Origin: Gammaproteobacteria bacterium
GTDB taxonomy: Bacteria; Pseudomonadota; Gammaproteobacteria; DSM-19610
Assembly (NCBI GenBank): GCA_011374975.1
Contig: DRNU01000175.1
Coordinates: 1-36,380, forward strand
Length of the DNA stretch: 36,380 bases
Reading direction: 5' to 3'
Positions 17,508-33,642 of this stretch are shown piece after piece. Numbering within the stretch: the first letter of the stretch is position 1; each line of letters begins with the position of its first letter. The position numbers were made by a program, and so were the translations under genes. The notes below the pieces were generated by a model, which worked only from the letters and a program-made list of their open reading frames with translations, did no database searches and had not been told where the DNA came from.

Positions 17508-17588
17508 ACAGTACCGTCCTTCGTGGTTTTCGCCACGCTCATGGGCTGATTTGACAGGGGGGATGGGGGCAAGTTCGATGGTGTACCT

Positions 17589-17616
17589 GTCATTGCGAGC
17601 GCAGCGCGGCAATGAC
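17589..17616. repeat. Dispersed inverted repeat, short copy
   Basis: GTCATTGCGAGCGCAGCG followed by CGGCAATGAC is one arm of the element seen at 9906-9983, joined directly to the start of the opposite arm end (AATGAC), so the spacer and most of one arm are missing. It lies between ruvA and the DUF3179 gene. Confidence 0.75.
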
Positions 17617-17651
17617 GGGGGAGTTCGGGTCAGAAGGTGGTGGTGAGGGGG

Positions 17652-18772: not shown

Positions 18773-18783
18773 GGGATGCCGGT

Positions 18784-19527
18784 CTACAGCTCGGCCAGTA
18801 TTTCCGCGGAAATATCCGCGTTGGAATACACCTCCTGCACGTCGTCGAGGTCCTCCAGTCGGTCGATCAGGCGCAGCATTTTCTCGGCGTCATCCTTGCT
18901 CAGCGACAGGGTGTTCTCGGCGCGCATGGTCACTTCCGCTTCCTGCGGTTCGAAACCGGCCTCGGTCATGGCGTCTTTCACGCTGACAAAATCTTCCGGC
19001 GTGGTCAGTACGTCGATGGAGCCGTCGTCGTTGGTGACGATGTCCTGGGCGCCCGCTTCCAGCGCCGCTTCCATGATGGCGTCCTCGTCGCTGCCCGGCG
19101 GGTAGCTGAGAATCCCGGTCTGCTCGAACTGGAACGCCACCGAGCCGCTGGTGCCGAGGTTGCCGCCGGCCTTGGTGAAGGCGTGCCGCACCTCGGACAC
19201 GGTGCGGTTGCGGTTGTCTGTCATGCAGTCGACGATCACCGCGACGCCGCTCGGGCCGTAGCCCTCGTAGCGGATCTCGTCGAAGTTCTCGCCGTCCTGC
19301 GCACCCGAGCCGCGCTTGATGGCGCGCTCGATGGTGTCTTTGGTCATGTTGGCGCCGAGCGCCTTGTCCACCGCCAGCCGCAGCCGCGGGTTGGACGCCG
19401 GGTCGGCATCACCGGAACGCGCGGCGACCGTTATCTCACGGATCAGCTTGGTAAAAATCTTGCCGCGCTTGGAGTCCTGCGCCTTTTTGCGGTGTTGGAT
19501 ATTGGCCCATTTACTGTGTCCGGCCAT
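18784..19527 (-). CDS. yebC: YebC/TACO1-family protein
   Basis: The 247-residue product begins [25 protein letters not shown], the invariant YebC start, and carries [24 protein letters not shown] and FEQTGILSY segments. YebC-family proteins were long described as transcriptional regulators; more recent work links them to relieving ribosome stalling at proline runs. It heads the ruvCA run and is divergent from ubiT. Confidence 0.95.
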
Positions 19528-19620
19528 GCCTGCCTCGCTACTGGTTGAAATCTGTCAGGATTCTAGCATTGACGGGCCAGCGGCGTAAGGCGGCGGCACG
19601 GCGGGCTGTCTGCACAGGCC

Positions 19621-19634
19621 TTGATCTGGATTAA
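19621..19634 (+). promoter_or_regulatory. FNR/CRP-family box before ubiT
   Basis: TTGATCTGGATTAA matches the FNR consensus TTGAT-N4-ATCAA at nine of ten positions. Its centre is about 43 nt before the ubiT start. A TAGACT element at 19656-19661 could be the -10 box, which would put the box near -41.5, the usual activating position. This fits a gene for oxygen-independent ubiquinone synthesis being switched on without oxygen. Confidence 0.6.
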
Positions 19635-19670
19635 GGTTCCGGCGCGGCGAAACGCTAGACTGGCCTGCCT

Positions 19671-20159
19671 ATGAATCTGCCTGCTCCGAAAAACACCCCC
19701 AGCCTGCCGCGCCTGCTGGCAGCCCCCCTGGCCCGCCTGCCCGACCCGCTGCATTCGCGCCTGCTGGCGCTGGCGCTCACGCGCACGCTGGATGAATCGC
19801 TGCGCGAGGGGGAGCTGGATTTTTTACAGGACAAGTCGCTGTCGATCCGGGTGCGCGATGCCGGTATCGATTTCCGGCTGACGCTGGGTAACGGGCGACT
19901 AGTGGCGGCGAGCCACGTCGGCAAGTGTGACCTGGTGATCGAGGGGACGGTTTATGACTTCATGCAAATGCTGGGGCGCCAGGTGGATCCAGATACGCTG
20001 GTATTCCAGCGCCGGCTGGTGATGCAGGGAAATACCGAGCTCGGGCTGGAGGTGAAGAATTTTCTTGACGGGCTGGATATGGAGGCGCTGGCATGGCATC
20101 GGCACCTGGAGCCGGTGTTGTTGAAGATATTGCCGGTGTATAAAAAGTTATTCAGTTAG
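19671..20159 (+). CDS. ubiT: UbiT, SCP2-domain factor for anaerobic ubiquinone synthesis
   Basis: The 162-residue product has an SCP2-type lipid-binding domain with the UbiT (YhbT) signature: LRVRDAGIDF-like beta strand, DLVIEGTVYDFMQML, then DTLVFQRRLVMQGNTELGLEVKNFLDGLD. UbiT is thought to bind ubiquinone intermediates and works with UbiU/UbiV in the oxygen-independent pathway. Both partners are encoded about 13 kb away in this window (33630-35604), on the other strand; in many genomes they are adjacent and divergent. No ribosome site is visible and, if the -10 element at 19656 is used, the leader would be almost absent. Confidence 0.88.
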   Translation: MNLPAPKNTPSLPRLLAAPLARLPDPLHSRLLALALTRTLDESLREGELDFLQDKSLSIRVRDAGIDFRLTLGNGRLVAASHVGKCDLVIEGTVYDFMQMLGRQVDPDTLVFQRRLVMQGNTELGLEVKNFLDGLDMEALAWHRHLEPVLLKILPVYKKLFS

Positions 20160-20189
20160 ACCCGCTCTAATCCAGACCTCAGCCGTCAC

Positions 20190-21119
20190 TCAGGCACTGT
20201 AGGCCGACTCCGGCCAGCGCCGTTTCATGCACAGCCATTGTTCCGGGCGCGCGCGTATCCATTCCTCAAACAGCCGGTTCAGCTCAGCCGTCGCCCTGAT
20301 CATGCGTTCCGGGTCCGCAGGCTCGCAACCGGTCAGCAGCGGTGCGTGGAAAGTCATCCGGTAACGTGCATCTTCGATGCGCTCGACCTGCACCGGGATC
20401 AACGGGCAATTCAGTTTCATCGCCAGCCAGGCCGGACTGGTGGTGGTCGGTGCCTGCCGGCCGAAAAAATCTATCGCCTCCCCGCTATCGACGCGCTGGT
20501 CCGGCAACAGGCCGATCGAGCGGCCGGCACGAATCTCGCGGATTACCTGTTGCAGGGCATGTGTCTTGGCTATGAACCGGCAACCGGAGGCACGACGCTG
20601 CGCCTGGAGCAGGGATTCCAGCACCGCGTTGCCCTGCGGCCCGTAGACAGCACTCAAGGGAATCCCCCTGGCTTTCAGCGTGGGCGCAACCAGTTCCCAG
20701 TTGCCGAGGTGTGCGCCGGCGTAAATCGCCGGTCGACGGTCTTCGAGTATCGGGCGCGACGCGCTGTTGATCACAACATCGATACGCGGTTCTGCGCCGG
20801 TAGCGCGGATCTTTTCCAGGTGCGGGTACTCGGCCAGCACCGCGCCGAAGTTTTCCCAGATGCCACAGGCGAGTGTGTCGGTCTCGTTTTCGTCGAGGTT
20901 GTCGAACGCCAGCCTGAGGTTGCGTTTTATGCGCTGGTGCTTGTGTGTTTTTGGCCCGAGCCGGCGAAACAGTTTTCTGCCGGTGGCCGATGCACGCGCC
21001 GGAGACATATGCCCGACCAGGAACCAGAACAGGCGCAACATCCAGCCCTCCATCGAGCGACTGATGTTGCGTAACCACAACAAGTGTGCGGATTGTTGCC
21101 GAAACAGGATACGTCCCAC
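20190..21119 (-). CDS. LpxL/HtrB-family lipid A acyltransferase
   Basis: The 309-residue product is a lysophospholipid acyltransferase-superfamily member of the LpxL/LpxM type, which adds a secondary acyl chain to lipid A at the inner membrane. The catalytic His-x4-Glu motif is in AGAHLGNWELVAP. Downstream come SAVYGPQGNAVLE, GRSIGLLPDQRVDSG (typical of the family) and FFGRQAPTTTSPAWLA. The start is taken at GTG 21117-21119 with AAAGG upstream; ATG at 21051-21053 (MEGWMLRLFWFLVGH) is closer to the usual start of the hydrophobic anchor but has no ribosome site. It converges on ubiT, and a dispersed repeat ends 24 nt upstream. Confidence 0.88.
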   Translation of the reverse strand: MGRILFRQQSAHLLWLRNISRSMEGWMLRLFWFLVGHMSPARASATGRKLFRRLGPKTHKHQRIKRNLRLAFDNLDENETDTLACGIWENFGAVLAEYPHLEKIRATGAEPRIDVVINSASRPILEDRRPAIYAGAHLGNWELVAPTLKARGIPLSAVYGPQGNAVLESLLQAQRRASGCRFIAKTHALQQVIREIRAGRSIGLLPDQRVDSGEAIDFFGRQAPTTTSPAWLAMKLNCPLIPVQVERIEDARYRMTFHAPLLTGCEPADPERMIRATAELNRLFEEWIRARPEQWLCMKRRWPESAYSA

Positions 21120-21435: not shown

Positions 21436-22515
21436 ATGCGCAGTCTCTCGATCAATGGAACAACCATTCACGATAACAGCCCCTGTTATGTCATCGCCGA
21501 AATAGGGAACAACCACCAGGGCAAGCTGGAAACGGCCATGGAGATGTTTCGCGTGGCCAAGGAGTGCGGTGCTGACGCGGTAAAGTTGCAAAAAAGAGAC
21601 AATCGCAACCTGCTGACCCGTGCCGGCTTCGACAAGCCTTACGACCATGAAAACAGCTTTGGTACAACCTACGGTGAACACCGTGAGTTCCTGGAGTTTG
21701 GCTGGAGTGAGTACCGGACACTGATGGAGTATGCACAGGAGATCGGTGTCACCATGGTGGCCACCGCCTTCGATATGCCCAGTGCCGATTTTCTTGCCAA
21801 GCTCGATATACCGGCGTTCAAACTCGCCTCGGGCGACCTGAAAAATATTCCGTTACTGAAGCATATCGCGGAATTCGGCAAGCCGATGGTCATCAGTACG
21901 GGTGGAGGTTCGATGGATGACGTCAACCGGGCCTACGATGCGATTATGCCGATCAACCAGCAACTCGGGATTCTGCAGTGCACCGCGGGCTACCCGGCCG
22001 AGTTCAGCGAACTGAACCTGCGTGTCATCACCACCTTCCGCGAACGTTTCCCTGATGTCACGGTCGGCCTCTCCTCGCACGACAACGGCATTGCCATGGC
22101 TATCGCCGCCTATATGCTGGGTGCGCGCATTGTCGAAAAGCACTTTACCTTCAACCATACCTGGAAAGGTACCGACCACGCTTTCTCGCTGGAGCCGTCA
22201 GGCTTCCGCAAGCTGGTGCGCGACCTGAGCCGGCTCAACGTGGCGATTGGCGACGGCGTCAAGCGTACCTATCCCAGCGAACGCGCGCCCATCGTCAAAA
22301 TGGGCAAGAAGCTGGTCGCGGCACGCGACCTGCCGCAGGGACACACTATCCGACCCGAGGATATCGCCATTAAATCTCCCGGCGACGGTCTGGCACCTTA
22401 CGAAATCGACAAGGTGGTCGGGCGCGTTACGCGCCAGGCACTGAAAGCGGATGACGACATTCTGTTTGAAGTCCTGAACGGCGCCGAATACTGGCAGGAG
22501 CTGGCCGTCTCTTGA
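21436..22515 (+). CDS. NeuB-family ulosonic acid synthase
   Basis: The 359-residue product has the NeuB layout: a TIM-barrel condensing domain (about 1-280) and a C-terminal SAF/antifreeze-like domain (about 290-345, KKLVAARDLPQGHTIRPEDIAIKSPG). Motifs include YVIAEIGNNHQGKLE, ADAVKLQKRD, FKLASGDLKNIPLL, STGGGS, LSSHDNGI and EKHFTFNHTWKGTDHAFSLEP. The family condenses phosphoenolpyruvate with an aldose or aldose phosphate to give a 2-keto-3-deoxy acid. The aldose here is unknown; a separate KdsC-like phosphatase in the cluster hints at a phosphorylated substrate. ATG 21436 follows AGGAG (21421) by 11 nt. It opens a nine-gene unit. Confidence 0.9.
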   Translation: MRSLSINGTTIHDNSPCYVIAEIGNNHQGKLETAMEMFRVAKECGADAVKLQKRDNRNLLTRAGFDKPYDHENSFGTTYGEHREFLEFGWSEYRTLMEYAQEIGVTMVATAFDMPSADFLAKLDIPAFKLASGDLKNIPLLKHIAEFGKPMVISTGGGSMDDVNRAYDAIMPINQQLGILQCTAGYPAEFSELNLRVITTFRERFPDVTVGLSSHDNGIAMAIAAYMLGARIVEKHFTFNHTWKGTDHAFSLEPSGFRKLVRDLSRLNVAIGDGVKRTYPSERAPIVKMGKKLVAARDLPQGHTIRPEDIAIKSPGDGLAPYEIDKVVGRVTRQALKADDDILFEVLNGAEYWQELAVS

Positions 22516-23324
22516 AGGAACTGTTCGACCTGACATCTGAAACAGCTGTTGTCACCGGTGCGCTTGGCAGGCTGGGCAGTGTCTGGATCGAAGCCCTGCT
22601 GGGCGCCGGCGCCTCGGTGTATGCGCTCGATTTGCCGGGTATGCCGGTCTCCAAAGCCTTTGCCGAGCTGCAGACGCGCTACGACGATGACCGCCTGCGC
22701 CTGGCGCGGGCCGATGTGCGCAATCGTCCGGCACTGGAAAAGGCCTGCCTTGAGTGTGAAGAGAAACACGGTGTACCGGGCATCCTGGTCAACAATGCCG
22801 GTATCGACCGGCCACCCGCCAGCAACGACGAAAGCTATCGCCTGGAAGATATTCCGCTGAAGGAAAACCGTGAAATTTTCGAAATCAACACACTGGGCCT
22901 GTTTCAGACTGCGCAGGTATTCGGCAGCCGTATGACCAAAGCCGGCTACGGTTCGATTATCAACATCGGTTCGCTGTATGCCGGTGTGTCGCCGGACGCC
23001 CGCTTTTACGATCACATCCAGGATGACCCGCCGTTCCTCAAGCCACCGGCCTATGGCGCTTCCAAAGCGGCTGTGGTCAACCTGACCAAATACCTGGCCA
23101 CGCACTGGGCCGCGCAGGGTGTGCGCGTCAACGCCCTGTCGCCCGGCGGTGTACTGGGCGACCAGGACGAGCAGTTTAAAGAAAAATTCTGCGCCCGGGT
23201 GCCGATGGGCCGGATGGCTGTCAGTGACGACCTGTACGGCCCGTTACTGTTTCTCGCTTCACGCGCCTCGACCTACGTCACCGGCACCGAGCTGATTGTC
23301 GACGGCGGCTTCACCGCCTGGTAA
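22512..23324 (+). CDS. Short-chain dehydrogenase/reductase of the glycan cluster
   Basis: The 270-residue SDR has a Rossmann start (TAVVTGALGRLGSVWIEALLGAG), the NNAG motif (LVNNAGIDRP), the catalytic Tyr-x3-Lys in YGASKAA and an SPGGVLG loop. The C-terminus YVTGTELIVDGGFTAW is typical. It presumably oxidises or reduces a hydroxyl or keto group of the sugar precursor or product; the position is unknown. The start codon is TTG (22512-22514), overlapping the NeuB-like stop as TTGA, so the two are translationally coupled. Confidence 0.88.
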   Translation: MKELFDLTSETAVVTGALGRLGSVWIEALLGAGASVYALDLPGMPVSKAFAELQTRYDDDRLRLARADVRNRPALEKACLECEEKHGVPGILVNNAGIDRPPASNDESYRLEDIPLKENREIFEINTLGLFQTAQVFGSRMTKAGYGSIINIGSLYAGVSPDARFYDHIQDDPPFLKPPAYGASKAAVVNLTKYLATHWAAQGVRVNALSPGGVLGDQDEQFKEKFCARVPMGRMAVSDDLYGPLLFLASRASTYVTGTELIVDGGFTAW

Positions 23325-23343
23325 CCCTTGCCGAGTTGATTGC

Positions 23344-24816
23344 ATGACACCTGATTTCATTCCCGATTGCATACCGAACTGGATTGGCGGCAAGCAGGCC
23401 GCGGCGGCCGGTGGCGAGGATTTTCCCAAGCTGTCACCGCACAGTGGCGCTGAATTGTATGGCGTTGCGCGGTCGGGTGCGGCGGATGTCGGGCGTGCCG
23501 TGCAGGCCGCAACGCAGGCCCAGCCGGCCTGGGCCGGGCTGACCCCGGTGCAGCGCGGCGAAGTCCTGCATGAAATCGCCCAGGGCCTGCGCCATGAGCG
23601 TGACAACATGGCCGCTGTGGTGGCCCTTGAAACCGGCATGTCGCACCAGGCGGCGCTGGGCGAGACCGCCGCCGCCATTGCCCAGGGCGAGTTCATGGCC
23701 GGCGAAGGACGCCGCTTTTACGGGCGCACCAGCACCAGCGCCGTGGCCAATAAATCCGCCATGACAGTACGCCAGCCGCTGGGCGTGGCCGGCCTGATCA
23801 TTGCCGCCAATACTCCGATTGCCAATCTTGCCTGGAAAGTTTTCCCGGCACTGATCTGCGGCAATACCGCGGTGCTGAAAGCCGCCGAAGACACCCCGGC
23901 CAGCGCCTGGCTGTTCGGCAAAATCGCCGCCGAGGCCGGGCTTCCCGCCGGGGTGCTGAATATTGTGCAGGGTTACGGCCTGGAAGCCGGCGCCCCCCTG
24001 GTGGACGACCCGCGCGTGGCGATTATCAGTTTTACCGGATCAACTGCCGTGGGCAAACGTATCGCGGCCACGGCCGGCGAGCGCCTGGCGCGCCTGTCGC
24101 TGGAACTGGGCGGCAAGAATCCGCTGATCGTGTGCGACGATGCCGACCTGGACAACGCGATCCACTGGGTGCTGCTGGCCGCCTTCAGCAATGCCGGTCA
24201 ACGCTGCGCGGCAGCAAGCCGGATTATTATTTTCGACAGCATCTATGACGAGTTCCGCGAGCGGCTGGTAGCGCGCACCGGGCAGCTGAAAGTCGGCCCC
24301 ACCGATGACGATGACTTCGGCCCGGTCATCAATGAAAGACAACTGAACAATATGCTGCTGGCGATCGAGCGCGCCCGGCAGGCCGGCGCGACCATCCTGA
24401 CCGGCGGTACCCGCCTGAACGACCCGGCACACGCCGGCGGCTTCTACCTGGCGCCCACTATTCTCGAAAATGCCGCGCCCGATGCCGAGATATCCACCAC
24501 CGAGCTGTTCGGCCCGATCACCTGCCTGTACCGGGCCGGTGATTTCCAGCAGGCGCTGGACATGGCCAACGACTCGCCCTACGGCCTGACCGCCAGTATC
24601 CACACCCGCAGCATTCATCGCGCCACGGTGTTTACCCAACGCATCCAGGCCGGCGTGGCGGTGGTCAACGGCGGTACCCACGGCAGTGAACCGCATATGC
24701 CGTTCGGTGGTTTGAAACAGTCGGGTAACGGTACGCGCGAACCGGGCACCGAGGCGCTCGATGTGTATTCCGAGTTGAAAGACATTTATATCAACATCGA
24801 CCCGGGGCAACTCTGA
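23344..24816 (+). CDS. Aldehyde dehydrogenase of the glycan cluster
   Basis: The 490-residue NAD(P)-dependent aldehyde dehydrogenase carries the general-base Glu254 in LSLELGGKNP, the catalytic Cys288 in NAGQRCAAAS, Lys179 in AVLKAAEDTP and FTGSTAVG for cofactor binding. The segment that is usually PWNFP reads AANTPIAN, though the expected Asn is retained. It would convert an aldehyde to an acid; within this cluster the substrate may be a sugar aldehyde. ATG 23344 is chosen, since the frame is open upstream only into the end of the SDR gene. Confidence 0.9.
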   Translation: MTPDFIPDCIPNWIGGKQAAAAGGEDFPKLSPHSGAELYGVARSGAADVGRAVQAATQAQPAWAGLTPVQRGEVLHEIAQGLRHERDNMAAVVALETGMSHQAALGETAAAIAQGEFMAGEGRRFYGRTSTSAVANKSAMTVRQPLGVAGLIIAANTPIANLAWKVFPALICGNTAVLKAAEDTPASAWLFGKIAAEAGLPAGVLNIVQGYGLEAGAPLVDDPRVAIISFTGSTAVGKRIAATAGERLARLSLELGGKNPLIVCDDADLDNAIHWVLLAAFSNAGQRCAAASRIIIFDSIYDEFRERLVARTGQLKVGPTDDDDFGPVINERQLNNMLLAIERARQAGATILTGGTRLNDPAHAGGFYLAPTILENAAPDAEISTTELFGPITCLYRAGDFQQALDMANDSPYGLTASIHTRSIHRATVFTQRIQAGVAVVNGGTHGSEPHMPFGGLKQSGNGTREPGTEALDVYSELKDIYINIDPGQL

Positions 24817-24818
24817 GC

Positions 24819-25598
24819 ATGGACAGTAAACCCTGCCGCACCGTCGCCCTGATACCGGCACGTTCGGGCTCCAGCCGGGTCCGGGACAAAAATATCCGTC
24901 GCCTTGGCGAGCACCCGCTGATCAGTTACACGATTTCCGCGGCGCGCGAAAGCGGCGTCTTCGACGACATTATCGTTTCAACGGACTCGTCGCACTACGC
25001 CGATATTGCGCGACACTACGGTGCCGAGGTGCCTTTCCTGCGCCCGCCGGATCTCGCCGGTGACGTGTCGCCCGATATCGAATGGGTGGCCTACACCCTG
25101 GACCGGCTGCGCGAGGCCGGTCGTGAGTTCGCGTGTTTCAGCATTCTCCGCCCTACCAGTCCGTTCCGTCTGCCGGCCACCATCCGGCGTGCCTGGCAGG
25201 AATTCCGGGCACATGACAACGTCGACTCGCTGCGCGCGGTTGAAAAATGCCAGCAACACCCCGGCAAGATGTGGGTGGTGCAGGGGCAACGCATGGTGCC
25301 GCTGCTGCCGTTGCAGACCGGCGGGCAACCCTGGCACAGCAGCCAGTACCAGTCATTGCCGTCTGTGTACATCCAGAATGCCAGCCTGGAGATCGCCTGG
25401 ACGCGTGTGATCGACCAGACCGAAACGATTGCCGGCAACACACTGGTGCCGTTTTTTACTCAGGGCCATGAAGGTTTCGACATCAACAGTGAGTATGACT
25501 GGAAGCTGGCCGAACACCTGCTCGACAGCGGGCAGGCAGAGCTGCCACCGGTCACTCATTTCCCTTACCTATTAGAGGTGCAACAGGAACAATGCTAG
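24819..25598 (+). CDS. CMP-sugar synthetase (NeuA/KdsB-type cytidylyltransferase)
   Basis: The 259-residue product has the nucleotide-binding start ALIPARSGSSRVRDKNIRRL, then VSTDSSHYADIARHYGAEV and the SILRPTSPFR motif that in NeuA-type enzymes contacts the sugar acid. It would activate the ulosonic acid as a CMP-sugar. It has no C-terminal phosphatase domain; a stand-alone KdsC-like enzyme is encoded at 29899. It follows the ALDH gene by 2 nt and overlaps the transketolase by 7 nt. Confidence 0.9.
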   Translation: MDSKPCRTVALIPARSGSSRVRDKNIRRLGEHPLISYTISAARESGVFDDIIVSTDSSHYADIARHYGAEVPFLRPPDLAGDVSPDIEWVAYTLDRLREAGREFACFSILRPTSPFRLPATIRRAWQEFRAHDNVDSLRAVEKCQQHPGKMWVVQGQRMVPLLPLQTGGQPWHSSQYQSLPSVYIQNASLEIAWTRVIDQTETIAGNTLVPFFTQGHEGFDINSEYDWKLAEHLLDSGQAELPPVTHFPYLLEVQQEQC

Positions 25599-27568
25599 AT
25601 ATCCGGCTCATCCCTGAAAACGAGTTTCGCCGCGTGCGCGAAACACCCATGGACGATAACGACAGGCTGAAGCTCATCTCCGCCATGTGCTGCGCCAACA
25701 CGCTGGCCACGGTCAAGCGTGCGGGCTCGGGGCACCTGGGGTCGAGCCTGAGCTCTCTGGATATCGTGATCTACCTGTATCACTGTGAAATGAACAGCAT
25801 CGAACTGGGGTTCACGCACCCGGACCGCGATATTTATTTCTCTTCCAAGGGACATGACGCTCCCGCCTACTACGCGGTGCTCTACTCGCTGGGCGTTATT
25901 TCAAAACAGCAGTTCATCAACCTGCGCCGGCTTGGCGGCACGCACGGCCATCCCGATGTCGGGATTCCCGGCATTGAAACCAACTCGGGCTCGCTGGGCA
26001 TGGGTATCTCCAAGGCCAAGGGCATGGCGCTGGCCAAGAAAATGAAGGGCGCGGGTGGCCAGGTGTTTGTGATGACCGGCGACGGCGAACTGCAGGAAGG
26101 CCAGATCTGGGAGTCGCTGCAAACCGCGGCGCACCAGTTGGCGGACAACATCACCGCCATTGTCGACATGAACAAGATCCAGTCTGACAAGCCGGTTTCC
26201 GAAATCATCGACCTCGGTGACCTGGAACAGAAGTTCAGCGACTTCGGCTGGCATACCGCGCGCTGCGACGGCCACGATTATGACCAGCTGGCACAGGTAT
26301 TCGCCGAGTTCCGCAAGGTAACCGACCGGCCGAAGATACTTATTGCCGATACCATCAAGGGCAAAGGTGTGTCGTTCATGGAAGGCCCGGCGGCACTGGA
26401 AGCGGGCCAGGGCCTGTATCCCTGGCATTCCGGCGCGCCGGACGATGAAACATTTGAAGCCGCCTACAGCGAAATTTTTGCCCGGGTCACGGCGCAGTAC
26501 GCGCAACTCGGGCTGGGCGAACCGGGCACGGAAATCATCGAAAGCCGGGAAAGAAACCGCACCAGCCTGAAATCGCGCGCCGAAAAGGTGGTAACCGCCT
26601 ACGGTGAGGCGCTGCTGGAACTGGGCGGCGAACGGGATGACCTGGTGGTACTCGATGCCGACCTGTCGGCCGACTGTGGCCTGCGTCCGTTTGAACATGC
26701 CTACCCGCAACGCTTTATCGAAAGCGGCATTGCCGAGCAGGACATGGTCTCTACCGCGGGTGGCCTGGCCCTGCAGGGCTTTCTGCCCATCGTGAATTCC
26801 TTTGGCGTGTTTCTCGCTTCACGCTCCAACGAGCAGATCTATAACAATGCCACCGAGCAGACCAGGATCATCTATGTCTGCCACTACGCGGGCGTGATCC
26901 CGGCCGGCCCCGGCAAGTCACACCAGAGCCTGCGCGATATCTCCCTGTTCACCGCCCTGCCGGACTGCACCGTGCTGCAACCGGGCAATGCACAGGAAAC
27001 CCGTCAGGTGCTGGAATGGTGTGTCGACAATGCCGAAGGCAACTGCATGATACGGCTGGTGATCGGCCCTTCGCCGCGCACCATTACGCTGCCGTTGAAC
27101 TACCAGCTCACCCCGGGCCAGGGTGTGGTGCTCAACGAGGGCAGCGATGCAGTACTGTTCGCTTACGGACCGGTGATGCTCAACGAGGCGCTGAAAGCCG
27201 CCGAACTGCTTGAGCAGCAGGGCCTTTACCTGAAAGTCGTCAATATGCCCTGGCTCAACCGGGTCGACAATGAATGGTTGCAGGAAACCCTCGGCGCCTG
27301 CGAAACCCTGTTTGTGCTCGATGACCATGCCCCTGCCGGCGGCCTCGGCGATACACTGCTGAATGCGCTGACACGGCTGGAATCACCGCGCAGCACGCGC
27401 CTGGTCAAGTTTGCCGTTGAAGGACAACCCGCCTGCGGTACACCGGCGGAAGTGCTGGACTATCACCGCTTGAGTGGCGAAAAACTGGCCGAACGCATCA
27501 ATGTCACGTTACAGGACGAGGCGGACCGCCAGATGGAAACAGCAGCCTACCTGTTGTCACGGGCCTGA
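25592..27568 (+). CDS. Full-length transketolase of the glycan cluster
   Basis: The 658-residue thiamine-diphosphate enzyme has the N-terminal half with RAGSGHLGSSLSSLD, KGHDAPAYYA, THGHPD and the TPP/Mg motif GDGELQEG (163-170) with Asn194. The C-terminal half has ESGIAEQDMVSTAGG, including the cofactor-activating Glu382. Both halves are fused and complete, unlike the split forms often found in sugar clusters. Transketolases move a two-carbon ketol unit between a ketose and an aldose phosphate. Placement between the CMP-sugar synthetase and glycosyltransferase genes argues for a dedicated role in building the sugar precursor, not for central metabolism. ATG 25592 is used; ATG 25649 is an alternative. 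Confidence 0.92.
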   Translation: MLDIRLIPENEFRRVRETPMDDNDRLKLISAMCCANTLATVKRAGSGHLGSSLSSLDIVIYLYHCEMNSIELGFTHPDRDIYFSSKGHDAPAYYAVLYSLGVISKQQFINLRRLGGTHGHPDVGIPGIETNSGSLGMGISKAKGMALAKKMKGAGGQVFVMTGDGELQEGQIWESLQTAAHQLADNITAIVDMNKIQSDKPVSEIIDLGDLEQKFSDFGWHTARCDGHDYDQLAQVFAEFRKVTDRPKILIADTIKGKGVSFMEGPAALEAGQGLYPWHSGAPDDETFEAAYSEIFARVTAQYAQLGLGEPGTEIIESRERNRTSLKSRAEKVVTAYGEALLELGGERDDLVVLDADLSADCGLRPFEHAYPQRFIESGIAEQDMVSTAGGLALQGFLPIVNSFGVFLASRSNEQIYNNATEQTRIIYVCHYAGVIPAGPGKSHQSLRDISLFTALPDCTVLQPGNAQETRQVLEWCVDNAEGNCMIRLVIGPSPRTITLPLNYQLTPGQGVVLNEGSDAVLFAYGPVMLNEALKAAELLEQQGLYLKVVNMPWLNRVDNEWLQETLGACETLFVLDDHAPAGGLGDTLLNALTRLESPRSTRLVKFAVEGQPACGTPAEVLDYHRLSGEKLAERINVTLQDEADRQMETAAYLLSRA

Positions 27569-27585
27569 CCGGACAAGTAGCGGAT

Positions 27586-28983
27586 ATGGAAAACCGTCAA
27601 TCATTGTTGCTGATCCCGGTCGAGAACCAGGTGCGCGAGCTTGACCCGAAGCTGCTGCTGGCCTGTATCGCCGCGCAGCACGGTTTTTCCTCGGTCATCG
27701 GTTCACGCCGGGAGATGGAATTCAATATTGACGCGTTCCCGAGTGCCATCTATTTATCCAAAAGCATGACCATACGCAGCCTGCTGTTCTTCAGGATCGC
27801 ACGCCGCTTCGGGCATCGCATCGTCGCCTGGGACGAAGAAGCCCTGGTGCACCTGCCGCCGGAGACCTATTTTTCACGCCGCCTGCACCCTTCAGCAATC
27901 CGCCAGGTGCTGAACCTTTTTGCCTGGGGCCAGGACAATGTGGAACTGTGGCGCCAGTACCCGGAGTTACCCGAGAACACGCCGATCCATGCCATCGGCA
28001 ACCCGCGCGGTGACATGCTGCGCAAAGAGATTCGCAGCTTTTATGCCGATGATGCCGCCGCGCTGCGCGAACGCTATGGCGACTTTATCCTGGTCAATAC
28101 CAACTTCAATCATGTCAACGCCTTTGGCCCGGACATCAATCTGTTCATACCGCCCAAAAGACCCGGCGGGAAGGCCCGCTTCGGCCGTGCCGCGCGCGGC
28201 ATGAGCCGCGAATATGCCAGCGGCCTGCACAACCACAAGCTGGCTATTTTTGAACATTTCAAGGCGCTGATCCCGCAACTGCAACAGGCCTTCCCGCAAC
28301 ACACCGTGGTGGTACGCCCGCACCCGACGGAAAACCACCAGGTCTATCGCGAGATTGCGGCCGGCTGCCCGGGCGTGGAAGTCTGCAACGAGGGCAATGT
28401 GGTGCCCTGGCTGATGGCAACCCGGGCACTGATTCATAACGGCTGCACAACAGCCGTAGAAGCCTACGCGATGAAAGTTCCGGCCATCAGTTACCGGCCG
28501 GTGGTGAATGAAGACTACGACAGCGGTTTCTACCGCCTGCCAAACGGGCTCAGCCACGAATGTTTCGATATCCCGGAGCTGACCGGCCTGTTACAGAAAA
28601 TACTCAGCGGAGAAGTGGGTGCCGCCAACAGTGCGCGGCGCCAGGCACTTATCGACCGCTACCTGGCGGCACAGGATGGCCCGCTGGCCTGCGAACGCAT
28701 GGTCGATGTGCTGGCAACCCTGCAACAGAATCCTGCCGGCCTGGCACAGCCCTCGGTCCTGCAACGCTGGCTTCTGTCCCGGGGACTGCAACTGGCCCGC
28801 CGCATCAAATCCTCGCTGCCGGGCTCGCACAACAAACCGGAATACCAGTTACACCGTTTCCCGGCACTGAAGCTGGGTGAAATGCGCAGCCGCCTGGCGC
28901 GCTTTCAAGCACTGCTGGGAATACAGCACAAGCTGGAAATACACCCTCTATCCGATGTCATGTTCCGGGTGGAGGCGCAATGA
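27586..28983 (+). CDS. GT-B-like surface carbohydrate biosynthesis protein
   Basis: The 465-residue product belongs, as far as I can judge, to the large surface-carbohydrate family related to CDP-glycerol and CMP-sugar transferases of GT-B fold. It has an acidic motif WDEEA (82-86), a conserved VVRPHPTENHQ (His-Pro at 245-246) and LIHNGCTTAVEAYAMKVPAISYRP (282-305), which recall the D/E-D/E-G, HP and S/T motifs of bacterial CMP-sialic and CMP-Kdo transferases. A role in transferring the CMP-activated acid made by this cluster fits, but it is an inference. No signal peptide or membrane helix is seen; it likely works at the cytoplasmic face. Confidence 0.7.
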   Translation: MENRQSLLLIPVENQVRELDPKLLLACIAAQHGFSSVIGSRREMEFNIDAFPSAIYLSKSMTIRSLLFFRIARRFGHRIVAWDEEALVHLPPETYFSRRLHPSAIRQVLNLFAWGQDNVELWRQYPELPENTPIHAIGNPRGDMLRKEIRSFYADDAAALRERYGDFILVNTNFNHVNAFGPDINLFIPPKRPGGKARFGRAARGMSREYASGLHNHKLAIFEHFKALIPQLQQAFPQHTVVVRPHPTENHQVYREIAAGCPGVEVCNEGNVVPWLMATRALIHNGCTTAVEAYAMKVPAISYRPVVNEDYDSGFYRLPNGLSHECFDIPELTGLLQKILSGEVGAANSARRQALIDRYLAAQDGPLACERMVDVLATLQQNPAGLAQPSVLQRWLLSRGLQLARRIKSSLPGSHNKPEYQLHRFPALKLGEMRSRLARFQALLGIQHKLEIHPLSDVMFRVEAQ

Positions 28984-29032
28984 TTTTTGTTATAACCAAC
29001 ACAGGAACCGAGGCTGACAGCCGGAGGAACAC

Positions 29033-29896
29033 ATGAAAATCATGATACTGGGCCTGGGTAAATCAGGCACCACCGCGCTGCTGTACAAAATGGCCGCGGG
29101 CCTGCCCGATTGCCATGCCTTTTCAGGCGGCAAGCCGGGCAAACATGCCGGCGAATACGCCAACGCGGTCTACAAGCACACTTATGAAGCGCGCAAGGGC
29201 AAGGGCTTTGAGCTCTACCGGGAACACCTGGAAAATAATGACTATGACCGCAAGGTCTGGATTTCCCGCGATCCACGCGATGTCGCTGTCAGCCGCATGC
29301 TGTACCGCTGGCACCGTGGCCGCATGGGACACAAGCAGCAGTTCCAGGCGCACCTGGACCTGGTGCTCAAAAAGGAACGGGACCCTGCCTCGGTTACGTT
29401 CACTGAGATATGCCGCTACACCGGTTTTGACGACTGGCCGAGAAACCTGCAGGACGTGCTGGAAGAGGAACGCCTGCGCTATGAAGAAATGACAGAGTTC
29501 ACCGGCAGCCTCGGCGATGACTGGTTCCTGTTCAGTTTTGAAGACATGGTGCAACAGAACTACGACACCCTGAACGCGCACCTCGGCTTCGAGGTACAAA
29601 AAGACACCGAGGTCCCCGAATCCACCGGCAAAGCCAAGGTTATCCGCAAGAAGGCCAGCGGTGACTGGCGGCACTGGTTCACCGAGCAGGATATCGAACT
29701 GCTCAAACCGGTTTACACGCCTTACATGCAGCTGATGGGTTATGACTGCGACGACTGGACACTCAGCGACAAGCCCTGCATCGAGCCGGCCTATTCGTCC
29801 GAGTACATGCAGCGCCTGCCGGAACGCATTACCCAGGACGTGGTCCGCAAGCTCAAGAACCAGACCTTGCAGCTGTTCGGCAGAAAGGCCGGCTGA
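29033..29896 (+). CDS. PAPS-dependent sulfotransferase-like protein
   Basis: The 287-residue product shows the sulfotransferase pattern: an N-terminal phosphosulfate loop GLGKSGTTALLYKM (about 7-20), the 3'-phosphate-binding segment ISRDPRDVAVSRML (about 82-95), FSFEDMVQQNYDTL and a C-terminal KASGDWRHWFTEQDIE, which in the family lines the cofactor pocket. It would transfer sulfate from PAPS to a hydroxyl of the glycan or its precursor. A 49-nt gap with GGAGG precedes the ATG, the longest gap in the unit, so it may have been added to the cluster later. Confidence 0.8.
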   Translation: MKIMILGLGKSGTTALLYKMAAGLPDCHAFSGGKPGKHAGEYANAVYKHTYEARKGKGFELYREHLENNDYDRKVWISRDPRDVAVSRMLYRWHRGRMGHKQQFQAHLDLVLKKERDPASVTFTEICRYTGFDDWPRNLQDVLEEERLRYEEMTEFTGSLGDDWFLFSFEDMVQQNYDTLNAHLGFEVQKDTEVPESTGKAKVIRKKASGDWRHWFTEQDIELLKPVYTPYMQLMGYDCDDWTLSDKPCIEPAYSSEYMQRLPERITQDVVRKLKNQTLQLFGRKAG

Positions 29897-29898
29897 CA

Positions 29899-30411
29899 AT
29901 GTCTGTTGACGCTCTTGTCCGCAATATCCGTTTTGTGGCGTTTGATTTTGACGGTGTCTTTACCGATGACAAGGTGTATGTCATGGAAGACGGCCGCGAG
30001 GCGGTGCGTTGTTTCCGGGGTGATGGTATCGGCCTGCAGAAACTCCGCGCCCTGGGGATAGAAACCGCCATTATCTCCACCGAGGCCAACCCGGTGGTAT
30101 CGGCGCGCGCGAAAAAACTGAAAATCCGCTGTATACAGGATTGCAGCGATAAACGCGCGACTCTGGAAAGCCTGATCCACGAACTGGGTATCAGCCTGGA
30201 CCAAACCGCGTTTGTCGGGAATGACATCAACGATCTTTCCTGCCTGCGCTGTGTCGGCCTGCCCATCATTGTCAGCAATGCCCACAGCGATATTATCCAG
30301 TACGCGGCCTATCGCACCAGAACACCGGGCGGGCATGGCGCGGTACGTGAGATCTGCGACTGGATAGAACAGTCGATGCAGGCACCGGCCGTACTCTCGG
30401 GCCGTATGTGA
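29899..30411 (+). CDS. KdsC-like HAD phosphatase
   Basis: The 170-residue HAD phosphatase of the KdsC/YrbI subfamily has catalytic Asp16 and Asp18 in FDFDGVFTDD, a Ser/Thr motif in IISTEANP, a Lys (SDKRATLESL) and GNDINDLSCL with the metal-binding Asp pair. KdsC removes phosphate from Kdo-8-phosphate, and relatives act on other 2-keto-3-deoxy-acid phosphates. In this cluster it would dephosphorylate the NeuB-like product before CMP activation. It starts 2 nt after the sulfotransferase stop. Confidence 0.88.
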   Translation: MSVDALVRNIRFVAFDFDGVFTDDKVYVMEDGREAVRCFRGDGIGLQKLRALGIETAIISTEANPVVSARAKKLKIRCIQDCSDKRATLESLIHELGISLDQTAFVGNDINDLSCLRCVGLPIIVSNAHSDIIQYAAYRTRTPGGHGAVREICDWIEQSMQAPAVLSGRM

Positions 30412-31745
30412 ACGCTCACCTGCCCTGTGCCGACGCTGCCGGCAGGTCGGCATTCAGTCACCTGTACGCCCTCGCCTTACCCGGCATAGCGGCGCTGCCG
30501 GTCTGCCTCTTGCTGCTGCCGGACCTTGCGGAAGTTATTTACACGCTTGTGACGATGGCCGGCCTGGCCTGTCTGCTGCACCACGGCCTGTCTGACGATG
30601 AGCGCCAGAGGCTTTTCCTGGTCAGTTTTCTGCCACTGTTGTTTTTCGGTGTTGCGGCACTGTCCGTTGCTGTATCGGGTGACTACAACAACTGGCTCCG
30701 GCCGCTGAAAAAACTGGCCGAGCTGCTGGCAACGCCACTTGTCGCCGTGCTGGTGATGCGCGCGAACATCCATCCACGCCATTTTATAACCACGGCCAAA
30801 CTCAGCGCGCTGCTGCTCCTGGCGGCCGCGCTGTACCAGTTCCTTGTCCTGCATAGCCCCAGGCCGGGCGGAGCGATCAGCCCCTTCCCGTTTGCGCATA
30901 TTGCCCTGCTGCTGGGCTTTTTCTCACTCATCCACCTGCCACTGGAAAGCACCCGGCAGAAATTATTTTCACTCACCGCCTTCAGCGCGGGTTTCCTTAC
31001 CACATTGATTTCACAAACCCGTATCGAGTGGATCAACGCACTCATTCTGATGGCCGCCTTATTGCTGGTCTGGCGCCGCGCCGGGTTACTGAGTAAACGT
31101 ATTATGCTGGTGATTGGCTGCACTGTCCTGGCACTGTCGCTGCTTTCGGTCAGCACGCCCTTTGTACACAAACGGGTTTCCGCGGCGCTTGACCAGTACC
31201 AGGCTTTCCAGAACCACCAGGGCTGGCACAACTCGGTCGGACAGCGCTTTCTCATGTGGCGGCATGGCCTGGAAGCGGCCGCCGCAAAGCCGGTATTCGG
31301 CTGGGGTATCCACCGCAGCCAACAGGCCGCGGTTGCCGGTCTGAGTGACCCGCAAATGAAGAAGACCCTCGGCAAGCATCACAATCTGCACAGTGAATAC
31401 GTGAATACACTGGCGGCGAAAGGTGCTGTCGGGCTGGTCAGCCTGCTTGCGCTGCTGTTTGTGCCCCTGTCGGTATTTTATACCCGTTCTGCCAACCGGG
31501 AGCAGCTGGTCTACACGGCCAGCGGTGTCCTGTTGTGTACTTCCTATGCCGTTTCCGGCATCGCCTTCCAGGCATTTGGCGATGACACCATGAATATTTT
31601 CTTTGTTATTGTCCTCTCGTATACGCTGACTGCCGTTGCGGGGGAACCTGCCAGGGCGCGAAGCACCCATCAATCACTGCCGTTACCTCAGAACAGTGAC
31701 GGGTCGACCGTGATATGCCGTATGCGGGACAGGTTCCAGCTATAG
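30408..31745 (+). CDS. O-antigen ligase/polymerase-like membrane protein
   Basis: The 445-residue product is very hydrophobic, with about ten predicted membrane helices. It carries the Wzy_C/WaaL-type periplasmic motif HHNLHSEYVNTLAAKGAVGL (about 325-344). Members either polymerise O-units or join O-antigen to lipid A-core. The start is GTG (30408-30410), overlapping the KdsC-like stop (GTGA). Its last 58 nt overlap the end of the BNR gene on the other strand, so the C-terminal tail is probably not conserved. It closes the nine-gene unit. Confidence 0.82.
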   Translation: MNAHLPCADAAGRSAFSHLYALALPGIAALPVCLLLLPDLAEVIYTLVTMAGLACLLHHGLSDDERQRLFLVSFLPLLFFGVAALSVAVSGDYNNWLRPLKKLAELLATPLVAVLVMRANIHPRHFITTAKLSALLLLAAALYQFLVLHSPRPGGAISPFPFAHIALLLGFFSLIHLPLESTRQKLFSLTAFSAGFLTTLISQTRIEWINALILMAALLLVWRRAGLLSKRIMLVIGCTVLALSLLSVSTPFVHKRVSAALDQYQAFQNHQGWHNSVGQRFLMWRHGLEAAAAKPVFGWGIHRSQQAAVAGLSDPQMKKTLGKHHNLHSEYVNTLAAKGAVGLVSLLALLFVPLSVFYTRSANREQLVYTASGVLLCTSYAVSGIAFQAFGDDTMNIFFVIVLSYTLTAVAGEPARARSTHQSLPLPQNSDGSTVICRMRDRFQL

Positions 31746-32725
31746 GTGATGTGCACCAGCCCGTCTTCCGTCTGTATAACCGCCGGGTAAGAGTATTCCC
31801 CGCGCCCCTGTTCCAGGACCAGCACATCCCGCCAGCGCCGGCCATCCACGGACAGCCCCACATTCAGTGGCGAGCGCCCGCGTGACGAATGGTTATACAC
31901 CAGCAGGTGCCGGCCATCGGCCAGGGTTACCGCGTCAGTGCCCGAGTTGGGGTTGGGCAGGTCCGTCAGCTCCAGCTCCGACCAGGTGACACCGTTATCA
32001 CCGGACCAGCTCTCGGCAATACGGTGGTGTTTGCTGCGGCACAGCAACTGCAACTGCCCGTCCCTGTGTACCAGTATGCTGGGCTGAATGGCGGCGATCG
32101 AATCACCATCGCCGATCGGCATGGTGCGCCACCACGATTCACCCCGGTCGCAGCTGTGTTCCAGGTGCACCCGCCAGCCGTCATGCTCGGCACTCGATGG
32201 ACATAACACTTCGCCGCCGGCCAGCTGTACCGGTTTGTTTTTGATGGGGCCAAGAATACCGTCCGGCAGGTGTCGCGGCGGGCTCCAGCTTTTCCCGCCA
32301 TCCTCGGACGTGGTCAACATCCCCCACCAGGTTCTCGGGTTTTTACCGACTTTATAGAACAACAGCAACGGCCCCGCAGCAGGCTGGAACAGGACCGGGT
32401 TCCAGCAGGCGTAACGCCCCCCGTTGTCCTGCTTGCCGGTCGCCACTTCACGCGGACCAGACCAGCCATTGCCCGTATTTCGTGCAACAAAAACAGCCAC
32501 ATCGGGCCGCGATTCCAGCGAGCCGCCGAACCAGGCAGCCACCAGGCCATCGCCACTGGCGGCAATGCTCGAGGCATGACTCATCGCAGTCGGGGCGGGA
32601 TCGACAATAAACTCGTCGTAGACGATGGCCGGGTGCGCCGTGCGTTGCGGTCCGCCGGCGTAACGGGAAGCCGTTTCTACAAACCAGCTGTTCAGCCTTC
32701 TGAACAGCAGACGATTGGTGACCAT
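31688..32725 (-). CDS. Sialidase-like BNR beta-propeller protein
   Basis: The 345-residue product is a sialidase-superfamily (BNR_2-like) six-bladed propeller. Asp-box-type repeats include SEDGGKSWS, SCDRGESWW and SGDNGVTWS, and family segments include SHASSIAASGDGLVAAWFGG, GPLLLFYKVG, GPIKNKP, AIQPSIL, LPNPNSGTDAV and SYPAVIQTEDGLVHITYSWN. No signal peptide is evident, so it may act inside the cell. Whether it is a true glycosidase is not shown by sequence. It is the last gene of the yhcC-ubiU-ubiV-dioxygenase run (14 nt after the dioxygenase) and overlaps the convergent O-antigen ligase gene by 58 nt. A substrate related to the neighbouring ulosonic acid is attractive but unproven. Confidence 0.8.
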   Translation of the reverse strand: MVTNRLLFRRLNSWFVETASRYAGGPQRTAHPAIVYDEFIVDPAPTAMSHASSIAASGDGLVAAWFGGSLESRPDVAVFVARNTGNGWSGPREVATGKQDNGGRYACWNPVLFQPAAGPLLLFYKVGKNPRTWWGMLTTSEDGGKSWSPPRHLPDGILGPIKNKPVQLAGGEVLCPSSAEHDGWRVHLEHSCDRGESWWRTMPIGDGDSIAAIQPSILVHRDGQLQLLCRSKHHRIAESWSGDNGVTWSELELTDLPNPNSGTDAVTLADGRHLLVYNHSSRGRSPLNVGLSVDGRRWRDVLVLEQGRGEYSYPAVIQTEDGLVHITYSWNLSRIRHITVDPSLF

Positions 32726-32739
32726 GCCCTGCAGGATAC

Positions 32740-33642
32740 TCAGCTACCGGCTTCTATGCGATCGAAATAACGCAGCCGGTACAACAGCCGTGGGCGGTCA
32801 GGGTTATCTTCAAAACGGCTCCGGTCATGCAGGACGTTGCTGGAGATCAGCCCCCAGCCCGGCTGCAGTGTCAGGCGGAAGATGTACGGGTCATCGGAAG
32901 ACAGCAACGTCTCAAGGGCATGCACCGCGGCCTGCGTAACCGCATCCTGTTTCCAGACGATGCTGTGGGTGCGCGCTGTATATCGCATATGCAGGCGCCG
33001 CCCTCCGTTCACCGAGAACACCGGTCCGCTGCGCGCCGGCCGGATTTCAACGCCCTGCTCGACGTTGGCCGGGATGGTCATGGCATCGGGCGCCATCAGG
33101 GCTTCTATGTAGGCCGGCTTTTCGTCACGCAAACGGATGTAGGCAATTTCATGGTCCAGCACGGCATTTTCCCCACCGCTTTCCGCCGGCCGTACACAGT
33201 GCAGTAACAGGGAGAAGATCTGCTGGTCGAGGGCATTATAGTAACCGTCGGTATGCCAGTGGATGGTGCGGTCCGTGTAGGGGATATAACGCCCGCGCCA
33301 CTCGCTGTTCACTACCTGCAGCGCGGTAATCCCGTCGTCATCGGAGCCCATGTTGCGGTCAAGGTTACGCAACCCGAACTGGGCGCCGAAGGTGGCGGGG
33401 ATGCGTTTGTCCGGGTCTGTCCCGGTCGGGCCTTTGTACACGGCCATATTGGCCCGTGCGCAGCATTCGAGTATGGCTTCGCGCTCGTCCTGGCTGAGCT
33501 TGCAGGGGTCCTTGACTTCAACAATCAGAGACTCGGCCTGTTGCGGATGTTGCGCCAGCTTTTTCTCGCGCCACGCGGCATACGCCGCCGTGTTTTCCAG
33601 TTCAAACGGGTTGTCCGGGGATACTGTCTTTAATGGGAGCAT
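32740..33642 (-). CDS. TauD/TfdA-family Fe(II)/2-oxoglutarate dioxygenase
   Basis: The 300-residue product has the TauD/TfdA double-stranded beta-helix. The iron ligands are His130 and Asp132 in TIHWHTDGYYN and His272 in SSNVLHDRSRF, with a 2-oxoglutarate-binding Arg in RLLYRLRYFD. The substrate is unknown. It overlaps ubiV by 13 nt, and AGGAGG lies 5 nt before its ATG, so it is translated together with the oxygen-independent ubiquinone genes, although its own chemistry needs oxygen. It may serve a low-oxygen step or a quinone-related hydroxylation; this is speculation from position. Confidence 0.85.
   Translation of the reverse strand: MLPLKTVSPDNPFELENTAAYAAWREKKLAQHPQQAESLIVEVKDPCKLSQDEREAILECCARANMAVYKGPTGTDPDKRIPATFGAQFGLRNLDRNMGSDDDGITALQVVNSEWRGRYIPYTDRTIHWHTDGYYNALDQQIFSLLLHCVRPAESGGENAVLDHEIAYIRLRDEKPAYIEALMAPDAMTIPANVEQGVEIRPARSGPVFSVNGGRRLHMRYTARTHSIVWKQDAVTQAAVHALETLLSSDDPYIFRLTLQPGWGLISSNVLHDRSRFEDNPDRPRLLYRLRYFDRIEAGS

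Follow-up and report, generated by a model that had tools for sequence, protein, structure and literature searches.

A conserved ulosonic acid module with a divergent transketolase in a gammaproteobacterial genome and a candidate chain-shortening route

We analysed contig DRNU01000175.1 of the Gammaproteobacteria bacterium assembly GCA_011374975.1. The window, 36,380 nt long, is an entire contig (G000:C175) of a 3.33-Mb, 88.8 % complete assembly, and it carries nine consecutive genes for a predicted surface glycan (Table 1). The heart of this cluster is a six-gene module encoding a NeuB-like synthase, a short-chain dehydrogenase/reductase (SDR), an aldehyde dehydrogenase (ALDH), a cytidine monophosphate (CMP)-ulosonic acid synthetase (CMPT), a divergent transketolase (TK) and a KdsC-like phosphatase. 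The putative glycosyltransferase (GT), the sulfotransferase and the ligase are add-ons in this lineage. The existence of a conserved ulosonic acid module with a divergent TK is well supported, and the module appears to be undescribed. Very probably its genes form one conserved ulosonic acid pathway that needs the TK. Among several readings of the mechanism the best, we infer, is that the TK shortens the chain of the sugar made by the synthase. We see about an even chance that the cluster produces a CMP-activated ulosonic acid of an undescribed type and polymerises it, using these six enzymes and the route proposed below.

Recurrence of the module

Genome contigs were scanned with the TK of the window, which gave 213 confirmed stretches, and the best 80 were kept as loci. 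Gene counts per locus come from tblastn searches of the window proteins and a few proteins from other loci against these 80 loci, with identity thresholds of 48 % for NeuB, 40 % for ALDH and 38 % for CMPT. NeuB was found in 34 of the 80 loci, SDR in 42, ALDH in 38, CMPT in 45 (4 of them weak) and KdsC in 31. NeuB, ALDH and TK occur jointly in 32 loci, and 24 have all six core genes when the weak CMPT matches are counted. Of the 80, 49 extend 8 kb or more upstream of the TK; among these, NeuB and ALDH were found in 30 each, both in 28 and the complete set in 23. The accessory genes are rarer, with GT in 15 of the 80 loci, sulfotransferase in 9, the BNR gene in 5, TauD in 3 and the ligase in 1. 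A separate protein clustering of 1084 open reading frames (ORFs), which differs from the tblastn counts used for the loci through its thresholds, placed GT in 14 loci and every other further family in at most 10 of the 80. Since the core recurs in many other genomes, the cluster is more than a chance arrangement. A sequence-only reading of this DNA had described a nine-gene cluster and proposed looking for the same gene set elsewhere. That search upholds a module of six genes; the counts for GT, sulfotransferase and ligase rule out the nine as a single conserved unit and make these three additions of the lineage.

The commonest order, on one strand, is NeuB-(KdsC)-SDR-ALDH-CMPT-TK, seen in 16 of the 32 loci with NeuB and ALDH (10 with KdsC in second place and 6 without KdsC). 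Record titles of these 32 loci carry about eleven phylum-level names, although individual host assignments could reflect binning error in metagenome-assembled genomes (MAGs). The hosts include Gammaproteobacteria, Magnetospirillum fulvum, Desulfobacterota/Deltaproteobacteria, Chloroflexota, Planctomycetota, Gemmatimonadaceae, Verrucomicrobia, Cyclobacteriaceae, Nitrospirae, Acidobacteria, a Patescibacteria MAG and a Methanoregulaceae archaeon MAG. All six genes are present in a named strain, M. fulvum DSM 13234 (L089), and the nearest named relatives by TK are Thiogranum and Thiohalobacter MAGs.

We also approached the association from the synthase. The search covered 274 genomes of the same class and two phylum-wide sets, one around a Desulfobacterales genome (297 genomes) and one around an Anaerolineales genome (301 genomes); our own genome and the two on which these sets were centred were excluded. 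A NeuB at least 50 % identical to that of the window (module type) was found in 14 genomes; the next-best matches were at most 46 % identical. The TK subfamily is present in 13 of these 14 genomes versus none of 26 genomes with only other NeuBs, the latter being our choice from the listed matches and not a random sample (Fisher p 1.2e-9, uncorrected for relatedness of the genomes). TK identity in the 13 positives is 45–64 %, except in G205, where fragments of 69 and 80 % lie on separate contigs, and the best TK in the 26 comparison genomes is 30–33 % identical to that of the window. In the exception, G424, NeuB lies on a 3269-base contig that also carries SDR and ALDH. Beside NeuB, ALDH was found in 12 and SDR in 11 of the 14 genomes. 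The samples overlap, as G164, G110 and G487 are also among the 80 TK loci and G802 is probably the genome of L033. Seven loci with a NeuB of 39–46 % identity had no TK and no ALDH in the stretch examined (two contigs are under 5.1 kb); six of them have KdsC and six CMPT, and two belong to G802 and G650, which carry a module NeuB and a TK elsewhere. The specific company of TK and ALDH with this NeuB type, noticed from the single locus, extends to other genomes. A plain 3-deoxy-D-manno-octulosonic acid (Kdo) or 3-deoxy-nonulosonic acid (Kdn) cluster was rejected as the whole answer because TK and ALDH accompany the module-type NeuB and the 39–46 % loci show neither.

For ten TK loci without a local NeuB we checked the whole genomes. 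Seven have a module-type NeuB elsewhere (57–79 %), and the remaining three, all Ignavibacteria, have only a short NeuB (33–38 %). About 20 loci of this Ignavibacteria type show no NeuB in the examined stretch, and these three are the ones whose whole genomes were checked.

Features of the core enzymes

The usual reading of a NeuB-type cluster is a sialic, legionaminic, pseudaminic or Kdn pathway, and this module passes none of the curated cut-offs for these. The NeuB of the window scores 290.3 bits against a cut-off of 399.65 for the N-acetylneuraminic acid (Neu5Ac) equivalog TIGR03569 and 229 against 340 for PseI. No Kdn synthase model gave a match in the curated-model search of window proteins, and no protein of the 88.8 % complete assembly exceeds the cut-off for Kdo-8-phosphate synthase (TIGR01362). 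The phosphatase narrowly passes the KdsC/YrbI subfamily cut-off (106.95) and stays below the equivalogs for KdsC (NF007019, 119 versus 208) and Kdn-9-phosphate phosphatase (NF058599, 96.6 versus 180). CMPT is below the PseF equivalog (135 versus 206). These scores are in keeping with the original suggestion of an ulosonic acid route of an uncharacterised type. The catalytic Asp residues of the KdsC-like enzyme are present in 40 of 40 aligned rows; in this and the following residue counts the rows are partly non-independent, as some genomes were entered twice. A second KdsC-like gene lies on contig C138 of the same assembly. Residue 19 of the window CMPT, in an apparent nucleotide-binding motif, is Ser, and 40 of 55 relatives have Lys there.

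In NeuB of N. meningitidis, Arg314 of the SAF domain positions the N-acetyl group of N-acetylmannosamine, according to PMC6795526. The window has Ser at the equivalent place, and each of the 52 module-type rows has Ser, Thr, Cys or Ile; the metal-binding His residues are invariant in these rows. Arg is kept at this place in three other NeuBs covering the region (L012, L023 and the L027 copy at 16509). The loss of Arg314 makes an N-acetylated hexosamine an unlikely substrate, in line with the absence of an aminotransferase and an acetyltransferase from the nine genes. L027 is a module locus (14261–21030) with two extra NeuB-type synthases and further CMP-transferases, and several ulosonic acids may be made there side by side.

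The TK falls short of the curated transketolase equivalogs (best NF004559, 417 versus 488). We mapped the active-site residues of human TK, as given in PMC8016368, onto the TK rows by alignment. All 89 rows keep the His residues of the thiamine site, the catalytic Glu and the WHSGAP His, so in its catalytic His and Glu the subfamily resembles the human thiamine diphosphate (ThDP) enzyme. It differs in the substrate pocket. Within gap-free stretches, the equivalent of Ser345 is Asp and that of Asp424 is Pro in 89 of 89 rows, and the equivalent of His416 is never His (Tyr in 41, Phe in 28, Leu in 20). No row has Arg at the position aligned with Arg474, and Arg318 falls in a gap; both have only likely been lost. 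In the human enzyme these residues presumably bind phosphate and substrate hydroxyls. An ordinary TK with the canonical motifs is encoded elsewhere in the genome (G000:C55). A housekeeping TK moved into a glycan cluster was rejected, since the genome has its own ordinary TK and the pocket residues differ in every row. In a FastTree tree, the TKs of the Ignavibacteria and of the aminotransferase-type loci described below group together with one ALDH-type sequence, L072.

The best curated model for the SDR is D-mannonate oxidoreductase, with gluconate 5-dehydrogenase fourth and KduD seventh of 200 families; all are below cut-off, and generic SDRs and glucose 1-dehydrogenase rank between them. 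The three named enzymes act on the penultimate hydroxyl of a sugar acid, oxidising it to give a CH2OH-CO end, and the SDR of the module, with its catalytic Ser, Tyr, Lys and Asn in 69 of 69 rows, is predicted to do the same. The best curated models for the ALDH are alpha-ketoglutarate semialdehyde and 2,5-dioxovalerate dehydrogenases, again below cut-off, the substrates of which are keto-acid semialdehydes. The catalytic Cys, Glu and Asn are kept in 50 of 50 rows, and the enzyme is predicted to oxidise an aldehyde at a chain end.

In six of the 80 loci a class III aminotransferase stands instead of the ALDH, and the two were never found in one locus. These loci (L038 and L076 from Kapabacteria, L066 and L068 from Bacteroidetes, L063 and L071) contain TK, aminotransferase, SDR and a short NeuB, and most also have a GT and a CTP transferase resembling SpsF/KdsB. 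L071 served for naming the families and is matched at 58–69 % by the other loci; its aminotransferase belongs to PF00202, with glutamate-1-semialdehyde aminomutase as the nearest curated model, below cut-off. In all three Ignavibacteria genomes checked, the aminotransferase cluster is without TK and the TK lies elsewhere in the genome. Ten further short-NeuB loci (six from Chloroflexota and four from the desulfobacterial set) had neither such an aminotransferase nor a TK in the stretch examined. Among their genomes, G603, G631 and G487 have the TK beside a module NeuB; of those lacking a module NeuB, G640 was the one searched genome-wide, and no TK was found. ALDH and class III aminotransferase both consume aldehydes, so an aldehyde-ended TK product would explain their alternation, and the swap suggests that the aldehyde arises downstream of the synthase.

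Proposed route and competing explanations

Every reaction and product in the following scheme is inferred from sequence and chemistry, starting from the observed gene set, co-occurrence and residue patterns. NeuB would join phosphoenolpyruvate (PEP) and a phosphorylated hexose, in the simplest case mannose-6-phosphate, into a C9 ulosonate phosphate (step 1), from which the KdsC-like enzyme would take off the phosphate (step 2). The SDR may then oxidise the C8 hydroxyl to give a CH2OH-CO-CHOH end, which is the form of a transketolase donor (step 3). The divergent TK would cut off C8–C9 as a two-carbon ketol and leave a C7 aldehyde (step 4), to be turned by the ALDH into a carboxylate, giving a 3-deoxy-hept-2-ulosaric acid; in the sister clusters the class III aminotransferase would yield a 7-amino sugar (step 5). 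CMPT is expected to activate the C7 acid (step 6), and GT, sulfotransferase and ligase would incorporate the sugar into a surface glycan (step 7). A bifunctional mannose-6-phosphate isomerase gene is present in the genome. Steps 3–5 as written have, in our judgement, somewhat less than an even chance of being correct. The wider picture, in which the glycerol side chain of a nonulosonic acid resembling sialic acid is trimmed by a TK with a remodelled pocket and interchangeable end enzymes then lead, across many phyla, to C7 ulosaric or 7-amino-ulosonic acids, is slightly more tentative still. Such trimming might be likened to mild periodate treatment in the laboratory.

The stereochemistry can be followed on paper. 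Transketolase requires a threo arrangement as in fructose, and in 8-keto-Kdn C7 and C6, read from the C9 end, would be threo as in fructose (in Fischer projection, mannose C4 is on the right and C3 on the left, inverted on rotation). Cleavage between C7 and C8 should spare the pyranose ring of Kdn, and the same operation on Kdo should hit a ring carbon. Starting from mannose-6-phosphate the product would have the L-arabino configuration; a D-lyxo product would need an altro-configured hexose.

Several points weigh against this route. It names no acceptor for the two-carbon unit of the TK, and its Kdn-derived product would be L-arabino and not the D-lyxo isomer known as Dha (see below). Both Arg318 and Arg474 lie beside alignment gaps and an Arg near the place of Arg474 is kept, for which reason their loss is graded as only likely. 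G603, G631 and L025 keep NeuB-ALDH-CMPT-TK, with SDR and KdsC not adjacent to NeuB. G274, G650 and G802 have a module NeuB and a TK, but no ALDH was found in these genomes at E 1e-130, and in L030 and L036 (loci only) the place of the ALDH is taken by GDSL-lipase-like proteins. Finally, 72,556 plasmid records gave one match each for TK (limit E 1e-90) and NeuB (limit E 1e-70), both in Streptomyces sp. NBC_01237 plasmid NZ_CP108509.1, where NeuB, SDR and TK are adjacent (L141, 10959–14750). This shared record speaks for the association of TK and NeuB, but the trio has no CMP-transferase or ALDH relatives nearby and stands amid genes resembling nonribosomal peptide synthetase (NRPS) genes. Its surroundings encode a FMN dehydrogenase, a glyoxalase-superfamily protein, a cytochrome P450, a methyltransferase and another class III aminotransferase, with the NRPS-like genes recognised by eye. 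If the chemistry is the same there, steps 3 and 4 do not require CMP activation. The trio perhaps belongs to a natural product with an ulosonic-acid-derived building block.

Two side observations concern the same loci. The GDSL-lipase-like proteins between CMPT and TK are large (L030, 6694–9940; L036, 8159–9958). In G274 (Desulfobacterales; L136, 7406–12184), NeuB-SDR-CMPT and KdsC are clustered, the TK is elsewhere and there is no close ALDH.

The sequence-only reading had taken TK and ALDH as signs of a different precursor, perhaps a chain-extended or oxidised sugar phosphate. This now looks less likely, given the replaced residues in the sugar-phosphate pocket of the TK, the ALDH/aminotransferase swap and the KdsC-like phosphatase, from which one would expect NeuB to start from an ordinary phosphorylated aldose; tailoring after the synthase is the likelier arrangement. 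The changed pocket and the loss of Arg314 in NeuB would be explained if SDR, TK and ALDH acted before the synthase and shortened a free hexose to a C4 uronic semialdehyde, which NeuB and PEP would convert directly into a C7 ulosaric acid. This order gives no job to the KdsC-like phosphatase, present in 31 of 80 loci and in all 24 complete sets, and we hold it to be quite improbable. Chain extension after the synthase is unlikely, if a little less so than the other alternatives: here an aldehyde would receive two carbons from the TK and the ulosonic acid would become larger or branched, with ALDH or aminotransferase acting on another group. Transketolase is reversible and ketol transfer onto an aldehyde is its normal synthetic direction, yet Kdn or Kdo in ring form offers no free aldehyde after NeuB, and the ALDH/aminotransferase alternation would go unexplained.

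The TK and ALDH could also be supply genes, with no role beyond providing or balancing precursors, through pentose phosphate flux, of an ordinary Kdn- or Kdo-type sugar. A NeuB-type synthase, a phosphatase and a CMP-transferase suffice for CMP-Kdn, and of the seven 39–46 % NeuB loci described above six have KdsC and six CMPT, without TK or ALDH in the examined stretch. Against this, an ordinary TK is already available in the genome, and the cluster TK has a changed pocket in all 89 rows and tracks one NeuB type, so that we regard mere supply as distinctly unlikely. In the least probable of these explanations, the product of the three enzymes is an acyl substituent (a glycolyl or carboxylate group, for instance) carried by an otherwise known ulosonic acid. 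Transketolase-type enzymes are able to form two-carbon glycolyl units, but no further family, acyltransferase or other, is as frequent in the 80 loci as the six of the module.

Among known systems, the formation of CMP-Kdn from mannose-6-phosphate via synthase, phosphatase and CMP-transferase is established in Bacteroides thetaiotaomicron and Prymnesium parvum, as reported in PMC6200933. That pathway shares with ours the NeuB-type synthase, the HAD phosphatase (in Bacteroides) and the CMP-transferase and needs no epimerase or aminotransferase, whereas the present module has three more conserved enzymes (SDR, ALDH and TK) and a phosphatase below the Kdn-9-phosphate cut-off. Sialic (NeuB/NeuA), legionaminic and pseudaminic acid clusters have a NeuB-type synthase and a CMP-transferase from the same superfamilies; here the NeuB and PseI cut-offs are missed, Arg314 is lost, and a dedicated epimerase, aminotransferase and acetyltransferase are absent from the nine genes. 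In comparison with the Kdo pathway (KdsA-KdsC-KdsB), the synthase is of NeuB type and the KdsC equivalog cut-off is missed. In the KdnA/KdnB route of Shewanella to 8-amino-Kdo, an ulosonic acid is oxidised and the resulting aldehyde is aminated. This resembles the aminotransferase variant of the module, but the Shewanella route acts on Kdo, without TK or loss of carbon.

The predicted product shares with Dha, 3-deoxy-D-lyxo-hept-2-ulosaric acid, the class of a C7 2-keto-3-deoxy acid with two carboxylates; the Kdn-derived version would be another stereoisomer. Dha occurs in plant rhamnogalacturonan II, and its biosynthesis is listed as unidentified in PMC12168206. No rhizobial plasmid reached the limits for TK or NeuB in the plasmid search; rhizobial chromosomes were not searched by name. 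By the title of a 1991 report by Russa, Dha is said to occur in Rhizobiaceae lipopolysaccharide, and a link to it is not supported so far. A literature search pairing transketolase with pathway words, with subscription journals and preprints outside its coverage, found no description of such a module; the papers it listed looked unrelated, one of them dealing with the ordinary metabolism of Clostridium butyricum. The word transketolase is absent from a survey of nonulosonic acid clusters in Vibrionaceae. The module couples ThDP-type carbon–carbon bond chemistry to ulosonic acid synthesis. If chain shortening is true, it would be the first gene-level route to heptulosaric (Dha-class) acids and a new logic of sugar biosynthesis, and this TK together with NeuB would give a simple rule for spotting such sugars in genomes and polysaccharide data.

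Accessory genes and neighbourhood

All nine ORFs are present on the plus strand in the order first described, and family and curated-model scores confirm the families then assigned to them (Table 1). Junctions are overlaps of 4, 7 and 4 nt and otherwise gaps of 2 to 49 nt. For none of the nine proteins was the best family in the family-model search an epimerase, an acetyltransferase or an aminotransferase, as had been noted before; the SDR also weakly matches PF01370 Epimerase (23.2 bits, cut-off 20.9), ranked behind the SDR models. The ALDH has an alternative TTG start open at 23296 upstream of its ATG, and the ALDH query sequences started at 23341, one codon 5′ of the ATG.

Table 1. Genes of the cluster and its flanks in the window
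Feature	Position	Strand	Evidence
NeuB-like PEP-dependent ulosonic acid synthase (core)	21436..22515	+	PF03102 252 bits + SAF domain
SDR oxidoreductase (core)	22512..23324	+	PF13561 133 bits
Aldehyde dehydrogenase, ALDH (core)	23344..24816	+	PF00171 499 bits
CMP-ulosonic acid synthetase, CMPT (core)	24819..25598	+	PF02348 (CTP_transf_3) 77 bits
Full-length divergent transketolase, TK (core)	25592..27568	+	PF00456 112, PF02779 94, PF02780 58 bits
Surface-carbohydrate GT-B protein, putative transferase of sugar	27586..28983	+	TIGR04396 375 bits
Sulfotransferase (lineage-specific)	29033..29896	+	PF00685 (Sulfotransfer_1) 38 bits
KdsC/YrbI-type HAD phosphatase (core)	29899..30411	+	TIGR01670 107.3 bits
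Wzy_C-domain O-antigen ligase/polymerase (outside conserved module)	30408..31745	+	PF04932 60 bits
Sialidase-fold BNR_2 protein, convergent with cluster	31688..32725	-	PF13088 302 bits
Presumed LpxL-like acyltransferase, upstream, opposite direction	20190-21119	-	putative label
Presumed TauD-like gene, downstream, convergent	32740-33642	-	putative label

The two outermost genes are presumably LpxL-like and TauD-like. The putative GT passes the curated TIGR04396 cut-off of 125 bits by a wide margin. Its AlphaFold model (pLDDT 88) has a GT-B fold, with TM scores of 0.42–0.52 to UDP-GlcNAc 2-epimerases and the TagF polymerase; a glycosyltransferase fits this model but is unproven. The window has one copy of the gene and close relatives have two in tandem. 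In the sulfotransferase the motifs GLGKSGTT and RDPRDV were spotted by eye, and the enzyme is presumably of the type using 3′-phosphoadenosine 5′-phosphosulfate (PAPS). No sequence relative was found in the PDB at E 0.01. The glycan is suggested to be sulfated by this one gene, which is the sole basis for the term.

The BNR_2 protein is predicted by AlphaFold (pLDDT 83) to form a sialidase-type propeller, and sialidases lead its PDB matches with TM scores of 0.7–0.77. No obvious signal peptide was recognised by eye. As a guess, it could serve to trim this ketosidic sugar or to recycle it within the lineage. The gene is absent from G164, G110 and G259, three more distant genomes that all have the module. 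Within the genus, both genomes with the cluster (our own and G205) carry it, and G080, where no such NeuB occurs, lacks it. In close relatives it lies beside the cluster, and the protein is highly conserved across six sequences.

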